A stretch of 64,000 nt of DNA from Synechococcus sp. KORDI-49 (GTDB lineage Bacteria > Cyanobacteriota > Cyanobacteriia > PCC-6307 > Cyanobiaceae). Shown here piece by piece: positions 30,936-37,240 of this stretch. Within the stretch, counting starts at the first letter, position 1. Each line of letters starts with the position of its first letter. The position numbers were made by a program, and so were the translations under genes. Below the pieces are notes generated by a model. That model did not search any database. It was not told the origin of the DNA and was given only the letters and a program-made list of their open reading frames with translations. Location of the stretch: assembly GCF_000737575.1 (NCBI RefSeq), contig NZ_CP006270.1, positions 1,615,163 to 1,679,162 of the forward strand. The letters are read 5' to 3'.

Positions 30936-31406
30936 ATGCAGCTCGATCACGACCAACTGCATCGGCTTCTTGAGGCGCTCGGTGAGAGCGACATTCAGGA
31001 ATTCCGTCTTGAGAGCGACGATTTCCGGCTGGAGATCCGGCGCAATCTCCCCACCCAGACCGTGATGACCACGGTGGCTCCGACTCCCGTCGCCGCTGCT
31101 GCCCCAATCGTGAGCGAGACCGCTCCCGCGTCCCCTCCTCCGGCCGCGGCTGCCACGCGCAGTGATCTGGTGGACATCACTGCACCGATGGTGGGCACGT
31201 TCTATCGGGCTCCTGCCCCCGGAGAGTCTCCGTTCATTGAAGTCGGAAACCGCATCAACGTCGGCCAGACCATCTGCATTCTCGAGGCCATGAAGCTGAT
31301 GAACGAACTGGAGGCCGAGGTGAGTGGAGATGTGGTCGAAATCCTTGTTGACAACGGCACGCCCGTTGAATTCGGACAGGTGCTGATGCGGGTGCGACCC
31401 GCCTAG
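30936..31406 (+). CDS. accB: Biotin carboxyl carrier protein of acetyl-CoA carboxylase
   Basis: Carries biotin between carboxylase and transferase subunits in the first step of fatty-acid synthesis. A short N-terminal dimerisation part is followed by an Ala/Pro/Val-rich linker (residues about 45-80) and a C-terminal lipoyl-like domain with the biotinylation site EAMKLMNE (Lys). Length 156 aa. The last 4 bases overlap the stop of pdxA on the minus strand. Confidence 0.96.
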   Translation: MQLDHDQLHRLLEALGESDIQEFRLESDDFRLEIRRNLPTQTVMTTVAPTPVAAAAPIVSETAPASPPPAAAATRSDLVDITAPMVGTFYRAPAPGESPFIEVGNRINVGQTICILEAMKLMNELEAEVSGDVVEILVDNGTPVEFGQVLMRVRPA

Positions 31407-32425
31407 GGCGTCGTCAGCTCCCAGGCCGCCTGCAGAGCGGAAATCATGCTCTGAGGTCGGGCGATTCCTCGTCCGGCGATATCGAAACCGGTGCCGTGGT
31501 CCGGCGACGTGCGCAGGAAAGGCAGGCCCAGGGTGGTGTTGACAGCCGCATCGAAGGCGAGCAGCTTCACCGGGATCAGCCCCTGATCGTGATAGAGGGC
31601 AAGGTATCCATGCGGTGCCGCGTCTTCATCCAGTGCTTGCCAGGCTCGTCCGGCGGCCAGCCAGCAGGTGTCCGGCGGCAACGGACCATCAAGGCGCACG
31701 TCCGGGTGCGCCAGCCGCCAGCGGTCCAGGGCGGGTCTGATCCAGTCGTTCTCCTCTGCTCCCAGTTGACCTTCCTCGCCGGCGTGGGGATTGAGACCGG
31801 CGACTGCCAGGTGAGGTCTGGGATGAAAACGCTGGCAGAACGCCAGCAGAGCATCGAGTTTGTCGACCAGCACCTCTTCGTTCAGAACGTCGGGTACCTG
31901 CTGCAACGGGATGTGGGTGGTGGCCAGCAGGGTGTTCAGCCGCCAGCCGTTCAGGGGAGAACGTGCCGTGAACAGCATGGATGCGTGCGGGCAACCCGCC
32001 AGTTCAGCCAGGCGTTCGGTCTGACCGGGATAGATGTGTCCTGCTGCATGCCAGAGATGTTTGGCGATCGGTGCGGTGACCAGGGCGCGCGCGCCGCGGC
32101 TCACCAGATGGTCCACGGCGACGGTGAGCCAGTGGAAACTCGCTTCGCCGCTGCGTGCATCACCTTGCCCCGGCTGGATGGGAGCGATCAGTGGTCGATC
32201 GTCGATCGTCAGATGCTCCGGATCGGCCAAAGCGGTGCAGCCGAGCCTTCTCAACCGGTCGTGGGTCTCCAGCAGGGTTCGGCGACAGCCCACCAGCATC
32301 GGTTTCATCGCTTGCGGCAGCTCTGGAGAGGCAAGCGCCTTCAGCGTCACTTCCATCCCGATGCCCGCAGGATCCCCCAGAGCGATCACAAGGCGTTGGG
32401 TAGCGTCGTGGTCGGATGTCTCCAT
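31403..32425 (-). CDS. pdxA: 4-hydroxythreonine-4-phosphate dehydrogenase PdxA
   Basis: NAD-dependent step of the DXP-dependent pyridoxal phosphate pathway. ALGDPAGIGMEV is the N-terminal signature; metal-binding His residues occur in APIAKHLWHAAGH, LNPHAGEEGQLG and LYHDQGLIPVKLL. ATG 32425 (340 aa) is preferred to an upstream start at 32476, because the family begins just before the LVIALGDPAG strand. Only 4 bases separate this ATG from the proposed start of the small divergent gene. Confidence 0.94.
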   Translation of the reverse strand: METSDHDATQRLVIALGDPAGIGMEVTLKALASPELPQAMKPMLVGCRRTLLETHDRLRRLGCTALADPEHLTIDDRPLIAPIQPGQGDARSGEASFHWLTVAVDHLVSRGARALVTAPIAKHLWHAAGHIYPGQTERLAELAGCPHASMLFTARSPLNGWRLNTLLATTHIPLQQVPDVLNEEVLVDKLDALLAFCQRFHPRPHLAVAGLNPHAGEEGQLGAEENDWIRPALDRWRLAHPDVRLDGPLPPDTCWLAAGRAWQALDEDAAPHGYLALYHDQGLIPVKLLAFDAAVNTTLGLPFLRTSPDHGTGFDIAGRGIARPQSMISALQAAWELTTP

Positions 32426-32429
32426 CGCT

Positions 32430-32621
32430 GTGCTGCGGTTGTTCCTGTTGGGTCTGCTGCTCGTGGGGCTGGCCACGGGGTTTCGAAATCAGTGGCTGAC
32501 GGTGAACTGGAACAAGATGCTGGGAGACATGGGGTTGCCTGCCGCTGACACCGAGGAGGAACCCATCGATTTCAACCGCCTGATCATCGGTGACCCTGCT
32601 ACGCCGGCGACGAAGGACTGA
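32430..32621 (+). CDS. Small single-helix membrane protein, uncharacterised
   Basis: A 63-aa protein: one N-terminal membrane helix or signal anchor (LRLFLLGLLLVGLATGF), then a short tail WLTVNWNKMLGDMGLP and an acidic end. I do not recognise a named family; the clear hydrophobic-then-polar layout and the sensible codon use suggest a real gene. GTG 32430 is the nearest usable start. Its 3' end overlaps the converging epimerase-like gene by 23 bases. Confidence 0.55.
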   Translation: MLRLFLLGLLLVGLATGFRNQWLTVNWNKMLGDMGLPAADTEEEPIDFNRLIIGDPATPATKD

Positions 32622-33510
32622 CGTCCTGCTTCAGACAGTCCTGCAATCCGACGCGGTAGTCGGGATGAAGCAGGTCATAACCGAGACCATCCCGCAGCAG
32701 ATGATTGCTCACCCTTCGGTTCTCGCTCCAGAAGGAGCGTGCCATGGCACTCATCTGCAGACTGGCCTGCTCGAAGGTCTCCGTCTCCGGCGCGTTTCTG
32801 CCGAGCAGTGCACAGGCATGGTCCAGCAGTTCGGTACTGGCGGCCGGTTCATCGTCGACGACATTGACGATGGCGGGATGCACGCCCTCCTGTGAGCGAT
32901 GCATCAGGTGCAGACAGGCACCGGCGATGTCCTCGACATGCACCCTGCAGAAAACCTGCCCGGTTTTGTCGATCCGACGGGCCCGACCCTCCTGCACTGT
33001 GTTGAGGACGGATCGCCCCGGGCCGTAGATGCCCGGCAGACGCAGGATCTGGATCGGCAGCCCGGAATCCCGCCAGGCCTCTTCGCAGTTCAGACGTCGA
33101 CGGCTGCGGGCTTGCCCGGGTCGTGCCGGGTCTGTTTCACGCACCCAGTTCCCCTGAGTATCGCCGTAGACCCCCGTGGTGCTGAGATACCCCACCCACT
33201 GCAACGGCATTGATTCCAGCTGGGATCGCAGGCAGTGCAGGGCGGGATCCTGTCCTTCCGGTGACGGCGGAATGGTGCTGAGCAGATGGGTGATGCCCTG
33301 TAGGGCATCAGGTTGCGGCAGCAGGTCGCGGTCGCTGTCGAACAGCAGGTCGGCATCGGGCCTTGACTGATCGCGTCGTGTGCAGAGCACCGTGTTCCCC
33401 AGCCGCCGCAGCAGTGCCGCGAGCATCCGGCCGCTGTATCCCCCGCCAAGAATCAGGACTTTCGCGCTGGCAGGCAGAGCCCGGCTGCGGTTGACAAGCT
33501 CATTGAGCAT
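32599..33510 (-). CDS. NAD-dependent epimerase/dehydratase-like protein (YeeZ-like)
   Basis: A 303-aa extended-SDR fold. VLILGGGYSGRMLAALL is the nucleotide-binding glycine motif; LSTTGVYG and ILRLPGIYGPGRS follow, as in nucleotide-sugar epimerases. The usual YxxxK catalytic pair is not evident where expected (RSRRRLNCEEAW), a feature of the YeeZ-like group, so classical sugar epimerisation is doubtful. Substrate unknown. Confidence 0.8.
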   Translation of the reverse strand: MLNELVNRSRALPASAKVLILGGGYSGRMLAALLRRLGNTVLCTRRDQSRPDADLLFDSDRDLLPQPDALQGITHLLSTIPPSPEGQDPALHCLRSQLESMPLQWVGYLSTTGVYGDTQGNWVRETDPARPGQARSRRRLNCEEAWRDSGLPIQILRLPGIYGPGRSVLNTVQEGRARRIDKTGQVFCRVHVEDIAGACLHLMHRSQEGVHPAIVNVVDDEPAASTELLDHACALLGRNAPETETFEQASLQMSAMARSFWSENRRVSNHLLRDGLGYDLLHPDYRVGLQDCLKQDVSPSSPA

Positions 33511-33542
33511 CAGTACACCTGTATCAGTGCTTCGTTGTGGTC

Positions 33543-33728
33543 ATGAGTTCGTCCTGTCTGCGGTCATGCGGTCCGGTGTCGACCGGCGAGGCCGCCGCTG
33601 TCCCTCTCTCCATCATTCTGCCTCTGCTTCTCTGCCTGGTGGCTGGGCTGCTGGCTCCGGAGGATCCAGTTGCCGACGCTTCGATCTGTCAGCGGCATCA
33701 TCCGGCGCCGGTCTGTCGGGTCTGGTGA
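33543..33728 (+). CDS. Small secreted or anchored protein ending CRVW, uncharacterised
   Basis: At most 61 aa. A hydrophobic segment (VPLSIILPLLLCLVAGLLA) is followed by about 20 polar residues with two cysteines (ICQRHHPAPVCRVW), which could form a disulfide outside the membrane. GTG 33537, ATG 33543 and GTG 33576 are possible starts; the last gives a 50-aa protein that begins closer to the hydrophobic segment. No named family is recognised. It ends 4 bases before the HNH gene on the other strand. Confidence 0.5.
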   Translation: MSSSCLRSCGPVSTGEAAAVPLSIILPLLLCLVAGLLAPEDPVADASICQRHHPAPVCRVW

Positions 33729-33732
33729 GGGT

Positions 33733-34173
33733 TCAGATGGTCTGGAAGGTCAGGTTCTTGTCACCTGTCCGGTCGGCGGATGGGGCCTGATTCGGCTGAG
33801 CCCACTGCAGCAACCTCAGAGCCAGACGCAGATCACCATCCATCCAGGCGCGGATCGCCATGGCCCTTCGGGGGTCGTAGAAGCGCTGTCGCCGGTACCA
33901 CTCGAAGACATCCGAATCAGACTTGTGACCGTTGCAGGACAGACATGCCGGGACACAGTTTTCGGTAACGCTCAGTCCACCTCTGCTGCGAGGAAGGACA
34001 TGATCAATGGATTCGGAAGGTTTGCCGCAATAAATACAACTTTGACCGGTGTGAGTATGGAGAGATTGTCTCCAACGTCGGACGCGTAATTTCGGGCAGA
34101 GTTCGTCAAGAAAAACGGCATCTCTGCTATGCATCCGAGTCAATCGGCTGAACGAATCTTGCCTCGAATGCAT
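33733..34173 (-). CDS. HNH endonuclease
   Basis: A 146-aa protein with a complete HNH core: CIYCGK (first zinc CxxC), DHVLPRSRGG (catalytic His after Asp), NCVPACLSCNGHKSDSD (second CxxC and the closing N/H). An Arg-rich N-terminal segment may touch DNA. Stand-alone HNH proteins of this type are widespread in cyanobacteria; functions vary. It diverges from a SNF2-type helicase with 106 bases between. Base composition of its 5' part and the intergenic is more AT-rich than its surroundings. A start at 34134 is also possible. Confidence 0.85.
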   Translation of the reverse strand: MHSRQDSFSRLTRMHSRDAVFLDELCPKLRVRRWRQSLHTHTGQSCIYCGKPSESIDHVLPRSRGGLSVTENCVPACLSCNGHKSDSDVFEWYRRQRFYDPRRAMAIRAWMDGDLRLALRLLQWAQPNQAPSADRTGDKNLTFQTI

Positions 34174-34279
34174 GCTCCGTCAATGTGTCGAGCGCTGCAA
34201 AAACAAAGGTTTCTCCAGCTCCAGAGGAAAACTTCATCTCTGCTCTTGCTCTCAAGCTGCACACCATTAAAGTGAATGT
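34174..34279. other. AT-richer divergent region between HNH and helicase genes
   Basis: The 106 bases lack obvious genes. They include runs such as AAAAACAAAGG and ATTAAAGTGAATG, and a short inverted repeat CTTG/CAAG at 34246-34257. It must hold the control elements for both genes; I cannot identify convincing -35/-10 pairs. Confidence 0.4.
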
Positions 34280-35899
34280 TTGTGGGGGGCGTTCACGACG
34301 CCATCGTCACCTGCTCACTGTTATCTAGGTCTGTCTCCCGCAGGTCTGATCCGTGTCGTCAGTCCATTCGATGCGGTCACACAGGCGCAGCTGAAACGGA
34401 TCCGTCCCAGGGGGCATTGGCATGGCCCCGCCGCGGGCTGGGAATTCCCACTGGCTGCGGCGGATGCCCTGCAGACGCAACTCGGCAAGCGGTTTCACAT
34501 CGCTCCGGATCTGGAGCAATGGCTGAGCTGGAGCCGTCACCCTCTGCCGCCGATGCCGTCCCACAGGGATCTGGTGGCGGCGGCCGATCTTCAGCAGGTT
34601 CTGCCCGATGGTCGTCAGCCTCTGCGGCATCAGCGCAGCGGTGTGCGCTGGCTGTTGGCGCGACGGGGTGCATTGCTGGCCGATGAGATGGGTCTGGGAA
34701 AGACGCTGACGGCTCTGTTGGCGGCCCGCGCCATGGTCCGCTGCATGGAGGTGAGAGTTCTGGTGATTGCGCCCGTCGGGCTTCATCGCCACTGGCGTCA
34801 GGAGGCGGATGCCGTCGGTCTCTCCATTGCGTTGGCCAGCTGGGCCAGGCTGCCCGGGGATCTGCCGCCTGCCGGCACCGTGCTGCTGGTGGATGAGGCC
34901 CATTTCGCTCAGTCGATCCGGGCGAAACGCACGGCTGCCCTGCTGCGTCTGGCACGCCATCCCCGATTGCGGGCGATCTGGATGATCACCGGGACCCCGA
35001 TGAAGAACGGGCGTCCTGCTCAGCTTTATCCACTCCTTGCTGCGATCGATCACCCGATTGCCCGCGACCGACGCAGCTATGAGGAACGCTTCTGCCAGGG
35101 CCATTGGCGTGAACAGCGGGGACGTCAGCGCTGGCAGGCGGATGGTGCCAGTGAGCTCGAGGGGTTGAGGCGTCTCACCCGTCCGCTGATCCTTCATCGC
35201 CGCAAGGCCCAGGTGCTGGATCTTCCCCCCAAGCGGCGTGCACTGCATCCTGTCGAGCTCACGGAGCGGGAGGCGCTCGGCTTCGATCACCGGGTCGATC
35301 TCGTTGTGGAGGACTATCGACACCGGGTCAGGCTCGGTCAGGTGCGTTCCGATGCCGAGCCTCTGGCGGTGCTGACCTCCCTTCGTCGGATCGCCTCGGA
35401 GTTCAAGCTCCCCGCCCTGGAGGCTCTGTTGTCACGGTTGCGCTCAGACGGGCAAGCCGTGGTGGTCTTCAGTGGCTTCGTTGATCCGCTGGTGCTGCTG
35501 CATCAGCGGGTCGGCGGAGAGCTGCTCACCGGACGTCAGCGTCCACAGGATCGTCAGCGCGCTGTGGATCGCTTTCAGCAGCAGGACTGCGATCTGCTGC
35601 TCGCCACCTACGGCACGGGCGGGCTTGGATTCACCCTGCATCGGGCGAGACATGTGGTGCTTCTGGAACGTCCCTGGACTCCAGGAGATCTGGAGCAGGC
35701 GGAGGATCGTTGCCATCGGCTCGGTATGGGGGATGGGCTGACCTGCCACTGGCTGCAGCTCGGTCCTGCTGACCAGCTGGTGGATGGTCTGGTGGCCAGC
35801 AAGGCCGAGCGGATCGATGTCTTGCTTGGACCACGTCGCATCGCCCTCGAGCGTCAGTCCCTGCCTGCCATGGTGCGTTCCTGCCTGCAGGCTGCCTGA
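34280..35899 (+). CDS. SNF2-family helicase with HARP-like N-terminal domain
   Basis: A 539-aa superfamily 2 ATPase. Residues about 30-80 (FDAVTQAQLKRIRPRGHWHGPAAGWEFPL) resemble the HARP-like module of annealing helicases such as SMARCAL1. The motor follows: RHQRSGVRWLLARRGALLADEMGLGKT (motifs Q and I), VLVIAPVGLHRHW (Ia), LVDEAHF (II), MITGTPMKN (III), then LLATYGTGGLGFTLHRA (V) and QAEDRCHRLG (VI). The start is a TTG; no ATG or GTG fits the frame upstream of the HARP-like segment. Its 3' end overlaps the lipoprotein gene by 46 bases. Confidence 0.85.
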   Translation: MWGAFTTPSSPAHCYLGLSPAGLIRVVSPFDAVTQAQLKRIRPRGHWHGPAAGWEFPLAAADALQTQLGKRFHIAPDLEQWLSWSRHPLPPMPSHRDLVAAADLQQVLPDGRQPLRHQRSGVRWLLARRGALLADEMGLGKTLTALLAARAMVRCMEVRVLVIAPVGLHRHWRQEADAVGLSIALASWARLPGDLPPAGTVLLVDEAHFAQSIRAKRTAALLRLARHPRLRAIWMITGTPMKNGRPAQLYPLLAAIDHPIARDRRSYEERFCQGHWREQRGRQRWQADGASELEGLRRLTRPLILHRRKAQVLDLPPKRRALHPVELTEREALGFDHRVDLVVEDYRHRVRLGQVRSDAEPLAVLTSLRRIASEFKLPALEALLSRLRSDGQAVVVFSGFVDPLVLLHQRVGGELLTGRQRPQDRQRAVDRFQQQDCDLLLATYGTGGLGFTLHRARHVVLLERPWTPGDLEQAEDRCHRLGMGDGLTCHWLQLGPADQLVDGLVASKAERIDVLLGPRRIALERQSLPAMVRSCLQAA

Positions 35900-36324
35900 C
35901 GCACACTCAGCTCATGACGGAGCATCGGCTCAACGGCGTCACCCTGTCGTTGCTGCAACTGGATCGCTTGCGCGACGTTCTCACAGGCCTGTGCCGTCCT
36001 GCCGAGCAGGTTGAGCACAAGGGCGCGGTCGCTTCGTGCAGCGGGGTCCTCCGGTGTCTCATTCACGGCAGCATCACAGCGATCAAGGACGGCTTCCAGC
36101 TGATCTGCCCTGAAGGCCTCAAGACAGCCTGGTGCTGCAGCGTTGTTCTGAGCTGACGACCTTGTGTCCGGGGGCTCCGGTGCCCGGCAGCCGAAGCTGA
36201 TCAGGAGGCATGCGGCGATCGGAATCAGCAGGATTCCCCGTTTCTCAGTAGCTGTATCGGTTCTCGTCGAATGTCTCGGAACCGCTGGGAGTGTTGCTGG
36301 TTGGTGCAGGGGAAGGTCGGCCAC
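35854..36324 (-). CDS. Putative lipoprotein with TPR-like C-terminal part
   Basis: A lipobox-like LISFGCRA ends a hydrophobic stretch (ILLIPIAACLLISFGC), predicting acylation at Cys. The mature part has a helical repeat (FRADQLEAVLDRCDAAVNETPEDPAARSDRALVLNLLGRTAQACENVAQAIQL) that looks like a pair of TPR helices. No ATG, GTG or TTG lies right before the hydrophobic part; GTG 36324 gives an unusually long N-region and an 80-base overlap with the DUF6554-like gene. The start is therefore unsure. Function unknown. Confidence 0.6.
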   Translation of the reverse strand: MADLPLHQPATLPAVPRHSTRTDTATEKRGILLIPIAACLLISFGCRAPEPPDTRSSAQNNAAAPGCLEAFRADQLEAVLDRCDAAVNETPEDPAARSDRALVLNLLGRTAQACENVAQAIQLQQRQGDAVEPMLRHELSVRQAACRQERTMAGRD

Positions 36325-36652
36325 TGGAGATGGAGGTCTGCGAGCTGCCTCCGAACAGATCGCCGAGGAACTGGCCACAGTCGGGGAAATTGCCGGGGTC
36401 GTTGACCACCGACTCGGTGATCATCACAGAGGCGTGCTGCGGCGATGTCTTGAAGGGTCCTTTTCCTTGGCGCTTGATCACGGCGTAGGCCGCATTCCAG
36501 CTCACGGCGTGGTCATTGCCGCTGGAGCGCATGTAGCAGTAGATCTTGGCGCCCTTGTCCTGCTTGCGTTCCGCAGCATCGGCCACGGTGGCAGCGCAGA
36601 CACCGATCAGGCCGAGGCTGACCAGGGCCGGAAAGGGAGCGAAACCTCGCAT
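36245..36652 (-). CDS. Secreted protein, DUF6554-like
   Basis: A 135-aa protein with a cleavable signal peptide (ALVSLGLIGVCAATVADA). The mature part has the blocks KIYCYMRSSGNDHAVSWNAAYAVIKRQ and TSPQHASVMITESVVNDPGNFPDCGQFLGDLF, which I associate with the cyanobacterial DUF6554 family (assignment from memory). Two conserved cysteines could form a disulfide. The tail is Ser/Pro-rich. It heads a two-gene unit with the lipoprotein. Confidence 0.7.
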   Translation of the reverse strand: MRGFAPFPALVSLGLIGVCAATVADAAERKQDKGAKIYCYMRSSGNDHAVSWNAAYAVIKRQGKGPFKTSPQHASVMITESVVNDPGNFPDCGQFLGDLFGGSSQTSISSGRPSPAPTSNTPSGSETFDENRYSY

Positions 36653-36712
36653 GAACCGATGCTGCGGAAACTGGGCCAACGGTATCGATCCGGGCTGCGG
36701 TGTCCAGGCGTC

Positions 36713-37240
36713 TCAGGAGTTTCCAAGGGTCATCGGAGTCAGCAGTCGCACCACCACAGGCAACACCAGCAGCACCGTGATCAGTCGAACCGCGTGCAGG
36801 GCTGCCACCGCCGCACCAACGCCGAATTCCGCACCGACCAGACTCATGCCGCTGATGCCCCCCGGGGCAGCGCCCAGCAGGGCGACGACGGGATCAATGC
36901 CGAGCAGCCTGCTGCTCCACAGCCCGATCACGATGCCGGTGAGCACCAGGGTGACGGTGATCAGCAGGGCAGGCCGCCAGAGTGCCTGCAGTTGTTCGAA
37001 GGAAGCGCGCGTCAGCCCTGTGCCGATCACCGTGCCGATGCCGATCTCCAGCACGGTCCTGGTGCCGCTGGGCCAGTCCGCGCTGTCCAGTCGACCGCTC
37101 ATGCTCAACAGGCCTGCTCCCAGAAGGGCACCGGCCAGCGGAGCGGCCGGAATGCGGCTGAGCAGAGCCAGCAGCCCGACTGCGGTGCCGGCAGCCAGGT
37201 AGATCAACAGCGTGGCGACTGGGTGCATCGTTCGCATCAT
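36713..37240 (-). CDS. AbrB-type (PF05145) membrane protein, half length
   Basis: A 175-aa integral membrane protein with about five to six hydrophobic helices. ALLGAAPGGISGMSLVGAEFGVGAAVAALHAVRLITVLLVLPVVVRLL is the signature end of the AbrB duplication domain (GAxPGG motif). Full members have two such halves in about 350 residues; this one has a single half, so it probably dimerises. The family name is historical and unrelated to the DNA-binding AbrB of Bacillus. Substrate unknown. Confidence 0.8.
   Translation of the reverse strand: MMRTMHPVATLLIYLAAGTAVGLLALLSRIPAAPLAGALLGAGLLSMSGRLDSADWPSGTRTVLEIGIGTVIGTGLTRASFEQLQALWRPALLITVTLVLTGIVIGLWSSRLLGIDPVVALLGAAPGGISGMSLVGAEFGVGAAVAALHAVRLITVLLVLPVVVRLLTPMTLGNS

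Follow-up and report, generated by a model that had tools for sequence, protein, structure and literature searches.

ZRANB3 (AH2) combines a SNF2 motor, an HNH nuclease and a HARP-like element. The HARP domain, the damage-recognition domain of XPB and domain I of MutS share one fold and, to our knowledge, most work on SNF2 motors with a HARP domain has concerned animals. According to one report, the minimal active version of human HARP begins at the second HARP domain and includes the core, and HARP domains fused to other SNF2 proteins confer annealing-helicase activity (PMC4035279). No published description of an HNH-SNF2 gene pair such as the one analyzed here was found in the portion of the literature searched.

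The window, that is, the whole 64,000-nucleotide stretch of DNA analyzed, corresponds to positions 1615163 to 1679162 of a single-contig genome of 2.59 Mb. It holds a stand-alone HNH ORF (33733-34173, - strand) and a SNF2 ORF (34280-35899, + strand) arranged head to head, which the original prediction had put forward as a possible split version of ZRANB3. Both ORFs exist as described, and their identities were confirmed with Pfam.

As in ZRANB3, a SNF2 motor, an HNH nuclease and a HARP-like element on the motor are present; unlike in ZRANB3, they are distributed over two separate divergent genes, and the HARP-like domain lies at the N terminus. With SMARCAL1 (HARP), the SNF2 protein shares a HARP-like domain directly preceding the SNF2 core, but here the domain is single and falls under the Pfam HARP cut-off. 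For its part, the HNH protein has the HNH core and cysteine pairs of stand-alone HNH proteins (4h9d and McrA-, Cas9d- and IscB-type cores), from which it differs in its family-specific ends, DAVFLEDLCPKLR at the N terminus and FYDPRRAMAIRAW at the C terminus. The closest named relatives of the helicase belong to Synechococcus, Prochlorococcus, Cyanobium and Vulcanococcus.

The gene pair and its composition

The two genes are as follows.

33733 to 34134, strand -: HNH nuclease gene, 133 amino acids, most likely starting at ATG 34134 (PF01844, E = 4.8e-10)
34280 to 35899, strand +: SNF2-family ATPase gene, 539 amino acids from TTG or 533 from an alternative ACG at 34298 (PF00176 and PF00271)

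Because the HNH start is placed at 34134, the intergenic gap is 145 nt, from the HNH ATG at 34134 to the SNF2 TTG at 34280, rather than the 106 bases first given. The pair had also been assigned to an AT-rich patch, which is not what the base composition indicates: the GC content of positions 33733 to 35899 is 0.623, compared with 0.632 for the whole window, and 27% of the stretches of equal length have lower values. The gap alone is AT-rich (GC content of 0.483). An AT-rich island was rejected, the composition of both genes being near the window average.

The HNH gene has its own promoter-like element

The HNH protein scored 39.9 bits against PF01844, for which the Pfam cut-off is 21.4. Its nuclease motif residues are intact, with C..C, DH, N and C..CN..K all present, and the motif C..CG..SESIDH..P..GG.....NC.P.C..CN..K occurs in all 143 distinct aligned orthologs, the HNH and SNF2 motif patterns having been composed after the alignments had been seen.

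Comparison of orthologous loci indicates that the gene most likely begins at the inner ATG (34134) and not at 34173. A start at 34173 would add 13 codons, and relatives are without them. In 108 of 141 distinct orthologous loci, the stretch from the upstream in-frame stop to the inner ATG contains no ATG, GTG or TTG, and an in-frame stop is found inside the 13 codons 5' of that ATG in 47 of the 141. Two elements lie just upstream.

34156 to 34183, strand -: promoter-like element of the HNH gene (-35 TTGACG at 34183-34178, 16-nt spacer, -10 CAAGAT at 34161-34156)
34135 to 34147, strand -: inverted repeat CCGA-n5-TCGG abutting the HNH ATG and recurring in relatives (read by eye, without statistics)

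The -10 element ends 21 nt before the ATG in the window, and the same distance of 21 nt was observed in 114 loci. A TTG[AC]C box separated by 15 to 19 nt from a -10-like hexamer was present in 127 of the 141 distinct HNH loci, compared with 0.3% of shuffled sequences and 0.8% of random 75-nt stretches drawn from the same loci, the pattern having been derived from 68 of the 141 loci tested. Where SNF2 is present, the element occurs in 115 of 121 loci, and where SNF2 is absent, in 12 of 20. The conservation of these sequences suggests that the HNH gene carries its own promoter-like element and is separately transcribed.

The inverted repeat at the start codon might act as a hairpin or as an operator. 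Behind the HNH gene, a 63-aa ORF (33537-33728) shows partial matches in many relatives and no Pfam match, and possibly represents a genuine small gene.

The SNF2 protein and its start codon

Three regions were distinguished in the SNF2 protein.

34319 to 34492, strand +: N-terminal beta-beta-alpha-beta-alpha domain, residues 14-71, HARP-like, with a modest likeness to the XPB N-terminal domain
34607 to 35395, strand +: first RecA-like lobe region of the SNF2 core, residues 110-372 (PF00176 and alignment)
35414 to 35725, strand +: Helicase_C second lobe, residues 379-482, with QAEDRCHR (PF00271)

The Pfam matches to SNF2-rel_dom and Helicase_C had E values of 1.1e-24 and 9.2e-14, respectively. 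The ATPase core is intact, Walker A and DEAH being present in all 149 distinct orthologs aligned, and 123 of 149 distinct aligned stretches contained the exact motif QAEDR[CA]HR. The AlphaFold2 model of the full-length protein had a pLDDT of 86.6, and SNF2 structures were its top structural matches.

The start of the gene in the window may be either TTG 34280 or ACG 34298, both being possible. Among 116 distinct SNF2 loci, 33 have no ATG, GTG or TTG between the upstream in-frame stop and a conserved Cys (34 of 124 under a slightly different counting rule). At codon 7 before this Cys, ACG is the commonest codon, with 29 ACG, 3 ACC and 1 ACT among 113 open frames. In the 29 ACG rows, which were selected for having that ACG, all codon positions vary alike upstream of it (0.62 to 0.70); downstream, constraint is seen at the second position (0.36, followed by 0.21 and 0.29) compared with the third (0.62 to 0.67). 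Thus, coding seems to start at the ACG, since the codon-position constraint begins downstream of it. An in-frame stop occurs among the ten preceding codons in 22 of the 29 rows, and no canonical start lies between the stop (or the edge of the sequence read) and the ACG in 15. In these 15 distinct loci the helicase probably starts at the noncanonical ACG. The ACG-start loci include L044, L148, L154, L159 and that of Synechococcus WH7803 (L147), the last being among the 15. An ACG start cannot account for all the start-less loci, because 13 of the 33 lack an ACG within the 12 codons preceding the Cys.

The N-terminal domain of the SNF2 protein is HARP-like

The original prediction held the N terminus of the helicase to be HARP-like. 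This stood in its weaker form: the pattern and the subthreshold matches in distant relatives speak for it, whereas the domain stays below the Pfam HARP cut-off, and the region did not prove to be something other than HARP-like. Pfam HARP (PF07443) matched none of 25 SNF2 orthologs at an E value of ≤10; no HARP match above the Pfam cut-off was obtained in the 8 genomes searched, and 5 family genomes gave no match at an E value of ≤10. Subthreshold HARP matches were found at the N termini of distant SNF2 relatives in two genomes (G171, E = 0.003; G194, E = 0.008). A third (G191) gave an E value of 0.53 at the SNF2 N terminus, equalled by a match elsewhere in the same genome, and of 14 well-known genomes used as a control, 5 contained a subthreshold match at an E value of ≤10.

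A profile of the family N terminus was run against all ORFs of at least 60 residues in eleven distant loci. Its top-ranked match was the equivalent region ahead of the SNF2 core in four distinct loci (L210, L212, L211 and L126, the last with a second copy, L216), with whole-sequence E values from 0.15 to 3.5, and it missed L125, L127 and L209.

The domain alone was modeled by AlphaFold2 with a pLDDT of 81.6. In structural comparisons, archaeal XPB N-terminal domains gave Z scores of 5.8 and 5.7, human TFIIH/NER chains 3.9 to 4.7 and eIF1 5.9; XPB chains overall ranged from 3.6 to 5.8, and Z scores below 8 may reflect merely a common arrangement. Any likeness to the XPB N-terminal (damage-recognition) domain would be one of fold (Z of 5.8 to 2fz4 over 56 residues, at 2.4 Å), but identity is 7%, the Z score lies within the common-arrangement range, and the motor is of the SNF2 and not of the XPB type. 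Foldseek with the N-terminal model returned nothing at an E value of ≤0.001, XPB and MutS being listed with a best E value of 0.86, and searching the PDB with a profile of the N-terminal alignment yielded chance matches only. The SMARCAL1 HARP structure was absent from the match lists of both searches, which excludes nothing. Taken together, alignment and model suggest a domain with a HARP-like pattern and a weak resemblance to XPB in its fold, and we call it HARP-like rather than a member of HARP.

Distribution of the two genes

Orthologs were sought in 151 family genomes at E values of ≤1e-50 for HNH and ≤1e-30 for SNF2. HNH was present in 129 genomes and SNF2 in 106, with both in 105. HNH alone was found in 24 genomes (one of them, G001, ends its contig there and is undecided) and SNF2 alone in 1 (G120, at a contig edge); 21 had neither, many of them being incomplete. 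The adjacency that had been predicted to be conserved held up within the family: the two genes are divergent neighbors in 104 of the 105 genomes with both, and in the remaining one (G018) a contig end splits the HNH gene.

Beyond the family, a sample of the phylum comprising 244 genomes (24 from the family and 220 others) was searched. At an E value of ≤1e-20, SNF2 was found in 12 family genomes and in 4 of the 220 others (G171, G191, G194 and G230), with 31 to 37% identity. At an E value of ≤1e-15, HNH was found in all 24 family genomes and in 1 of the 220 others, with 46% identity over half of the protein. No HNH-SNF2 ortholog pair was found outside the family at the depth searched, which covered the phylum sample and distant SNF2 loci, and the co-occurrence expected beyond this lineage was not borne out there.

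Among plasmid and phage matches, the nearest SNF2 relatives are encoded by plasmids from Nostoc, Microcystis and Synechococcus PCC 7502 (36 to 37% identity over 93 to 94% of the query). These proteins differ from the window SNF2 protein in their length (671 to 801 aa) and long N-terminal extensions. The plasmid genes (L209 to L212) are a possible mobile source of the chromosomal gene. Within 5 kb of them, neither annotation nor a profile search revealed an HNH gene, and no recognizable relative of the HNH family was found in eight distant SNF2 loci (L125 to L128 and L209 to L212; best E value, 0.096) by a profile search that would miss unrelated kinds of nuclease. As for phages, 37 records match the helicase, all with less than 60% identity and none covering 80%, and 281 match the HNH protein, the 12 matches listed, which are cyanophages, being 30 to 42% identical.

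These relatives bear on the possibility that the two genes are unrelated neighbors, SNF2 having been gained by the family ancestor from a mobile element and domesticated beside HNH, with an accidental neighborhood. The plasmid matches point in this direction, as do the small number of matches outside the family in the phylum sample and the fact that HNH outlives SNF2. However, the pair extends throughout the family (105 of 151 genomes), and we regard such an origin as quite improbable.

Neighborhood and coupling of the two genes

The flanks had been described as small orphan genes, but the main neighbors are conserved genes (epimerase, pdxA, DUF6554 and AbrB).

31403 to 33510, strand -: upstream context, pdxA (31403-32476) and an NAD-dependent epimerase-like gene (32599-33510) (Pfam)
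35854 to 37240, strand -: downstream context, a TPR-like ORF, a DUF6554 gene (36245-36679) and an AbrB-like gene (36713-37240) (Pfam; TPR below cut-off)

As called, the TPR-like ORF (35854-36378) overlaps the DUF6554 gene, which lies on the same strand, so that one of the two starts is probably wrong; the TPR-like ORF also overlaps the 3' end of the SNF2 gene.

The best 80 of 299 named loci, picked by SNF2 similarity, were compared. HNH was divergently adjacent to SNF2 in 79 of these 80, epimerase and pdxA were upstream of SNF2 in all 69 named loci for which 3 kb or more of upstream sequence was available, and DUF6554 or AbrB was downstream in all 71 with 2 kb or more of downstream sequence. 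Because the block pdxA-epimerase-HNH-SNF2-DUF6554-AbrB is conserved throughout, the HNH-SNF2 adjacency looks like positional inheritance and adds little. The two genes are old chromosomal neighbors in picocyanobacteria.

In loci without SNF2, HNH adjoins DUF6554 (20 of the 20 fetched). On a pdxA-plus-epimerase tree, several deep nodes of which are poorly supported, SNF2 was lost about three times with HNH kept; the Fitch count was four changes including G025, which has neither gene, and the approximately three losses were read from the tree minus this genome. In G025 both genes are absent and the flanks are intact, and in G049, G133 and G008 both are absent and the neighborhood is different.

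A mirror-tree analysis was carried out on the 63 of the 80 named loci in which all six genes reached the required coverage. The HNH-SNF2 pair showed a partial r of -0.30, the lowest of 15 gene pairs, in a test of weak power since HNH is a short, slowly evolving protein. On this negative, if weak, test, shared evolution of the two proteins was rejected. None of 150 SNF2 ORFs was fused to the HNH family (HNH profile, E value of ≤1).

In a Prochlorococcus genome of 1.1 Mb (L164), a single deletion removes HNH, part of the epimerase gene and the SNF2 start (L164:5001-5066), and no HNH match was found elsewhere in that genome; the deletion may be an assembly fault. A strict rule of no SNF2 without HNH was rejected, given that L164 has SNF2 without HNH. 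A clean SNF2-only locus was not found, G120 being a contig edge and L164 a deletion into epimerase and SNF2, and because of this a one-way dependence is possible. Overall, the results oppose a tight coupling of HNH and SNF2 and leave room for a loose shared pathway.

The same data weigh on the proposal that the two proteins form one fork-remodeling machine, in which the SNF2 motor would deliver the HNH nuclease to stalled forks. Both ZRANB3 activities are present, the genes adjoin in 104 of the 105 genomes with both, the two SNF2-only cases (G120 and L164) are not clean, and the joint absence in G025 leaves the flanks intact. However, the two-part system that had been predicted does not fit well with a gene block whose flanks are equally conserved, with 24 genomes (one undecided) in which HNH persists without SNF2, with a partial rate correlation of -0.30 that gives no co-variation, with a separate HNH promoter element, with 0 fusions in 150 SNF2 ORFs, or with eight distant SNF2 loci that have no recognizable HNH. 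Adjacency is the sole positive evidence, and a single machine is possible but unsupported; we consider it unlikely. If true, it would bear on the origin of the animal fusion.

We think it very unlikely that the locus is an ancient two-gene counterpart of ZRANB3, in which a HARP/XPB-like SNF2 motor, made at a low level by means of the ACG start in some lineages, would remodel stalled forks and recruit the separately expressed HNH protein, the latter acting alone in small-genome lineages without SNF2.

Comparison with defense systems

PtuA is the partner ATPase of PtuB in Septu. An anti-phage role had been suggested for the pair, and known defense systems do contain HNH and SNF2 domains. With PADLOC, the helicase matched ZorD (7.5e-26), DpdE and DrmD, and the HNH protein matched PDC-M01B (5e-8) and PtuB (1.2e-5). 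These matches, however, fall on the shared helicase or HNH core, and the helicase is far under the NCBIfam cut-offs (61.7 versus 1500 bits for ZorD, 51.3 versus 950 for DrmD and 39 versus 500 for DpdE). Unlike in Septu, the HNH gene is flanked here by epimerase and SNF2, with no PtuA beside it. The chromosomal site is fixed, the composition is normal, the pair is widespread in the family, and the neighbors are conserved and not related to defense. An anti-phage role found no positive support in these data and is unlikely for the pair; that the two genes make up an anti-phage or restriction system is, in our judgment, hardly credible. A defense island was likewise rejected, on the conserved nondefense flanks and the generic similarity to defense models.

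A putative DNA-maintenance locus

The locus is family-wide, ordinary in origin and mildly interesting in content; its HARP-like SNF2 motor and its HNH nuclease most likely serve DNA maintenance. The reading toward which we lean is that of a vertically inherited chromosomal DNA-maintenance locus, encoding a SMARCAL1-like motor together with an HNH nuclease that is expressed separately. The SNF2 protein would be a compact SMARCAL1-type motor. By analogy with its family, the small N-terminal HARP/XPB-like domain would dock on branched or junction DNA, and the SNF2 core would translocate, re-annealing or branch-migrating the DNA. For its part, the separately transcribed HNH protein is predicted to be a probably active metal-dependent DNA nuclease, which may act in DNA repair or in the removal of aberrant DNA, the same general business as that of SNF2, and would do so independently of it. 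HNH and SNF2 would remain neighbors because the whole block has not moved. Several observations weigh against the DNA-maintenance reading: G025 lacks both genes with the flanks intact, as a functional pair would also give, the HARP assignment by sequence fails the Pfam cut-off, control genomes too give subthreshold HARP matches, and the fold match is modest and tied with that of eIF1. A chromosomal HARP-like SNF2 protein in abundant ocean and lake phototrophs would offer a simple bacterial fork-remodeling system.

An HNH endonuclease gene of Prochlorococcus, PMM1528, is presumably not an ortholog of the window HNH gene, judging by its gene number. Its expression is reported to be raised under UV (PMC2921402). 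A second HNH copy, with approximately 60% identity, was observed in a group of small genomes without SNF2 (g17), for example at G017:C3:16145-16489 and G136:C1:19051-19389.
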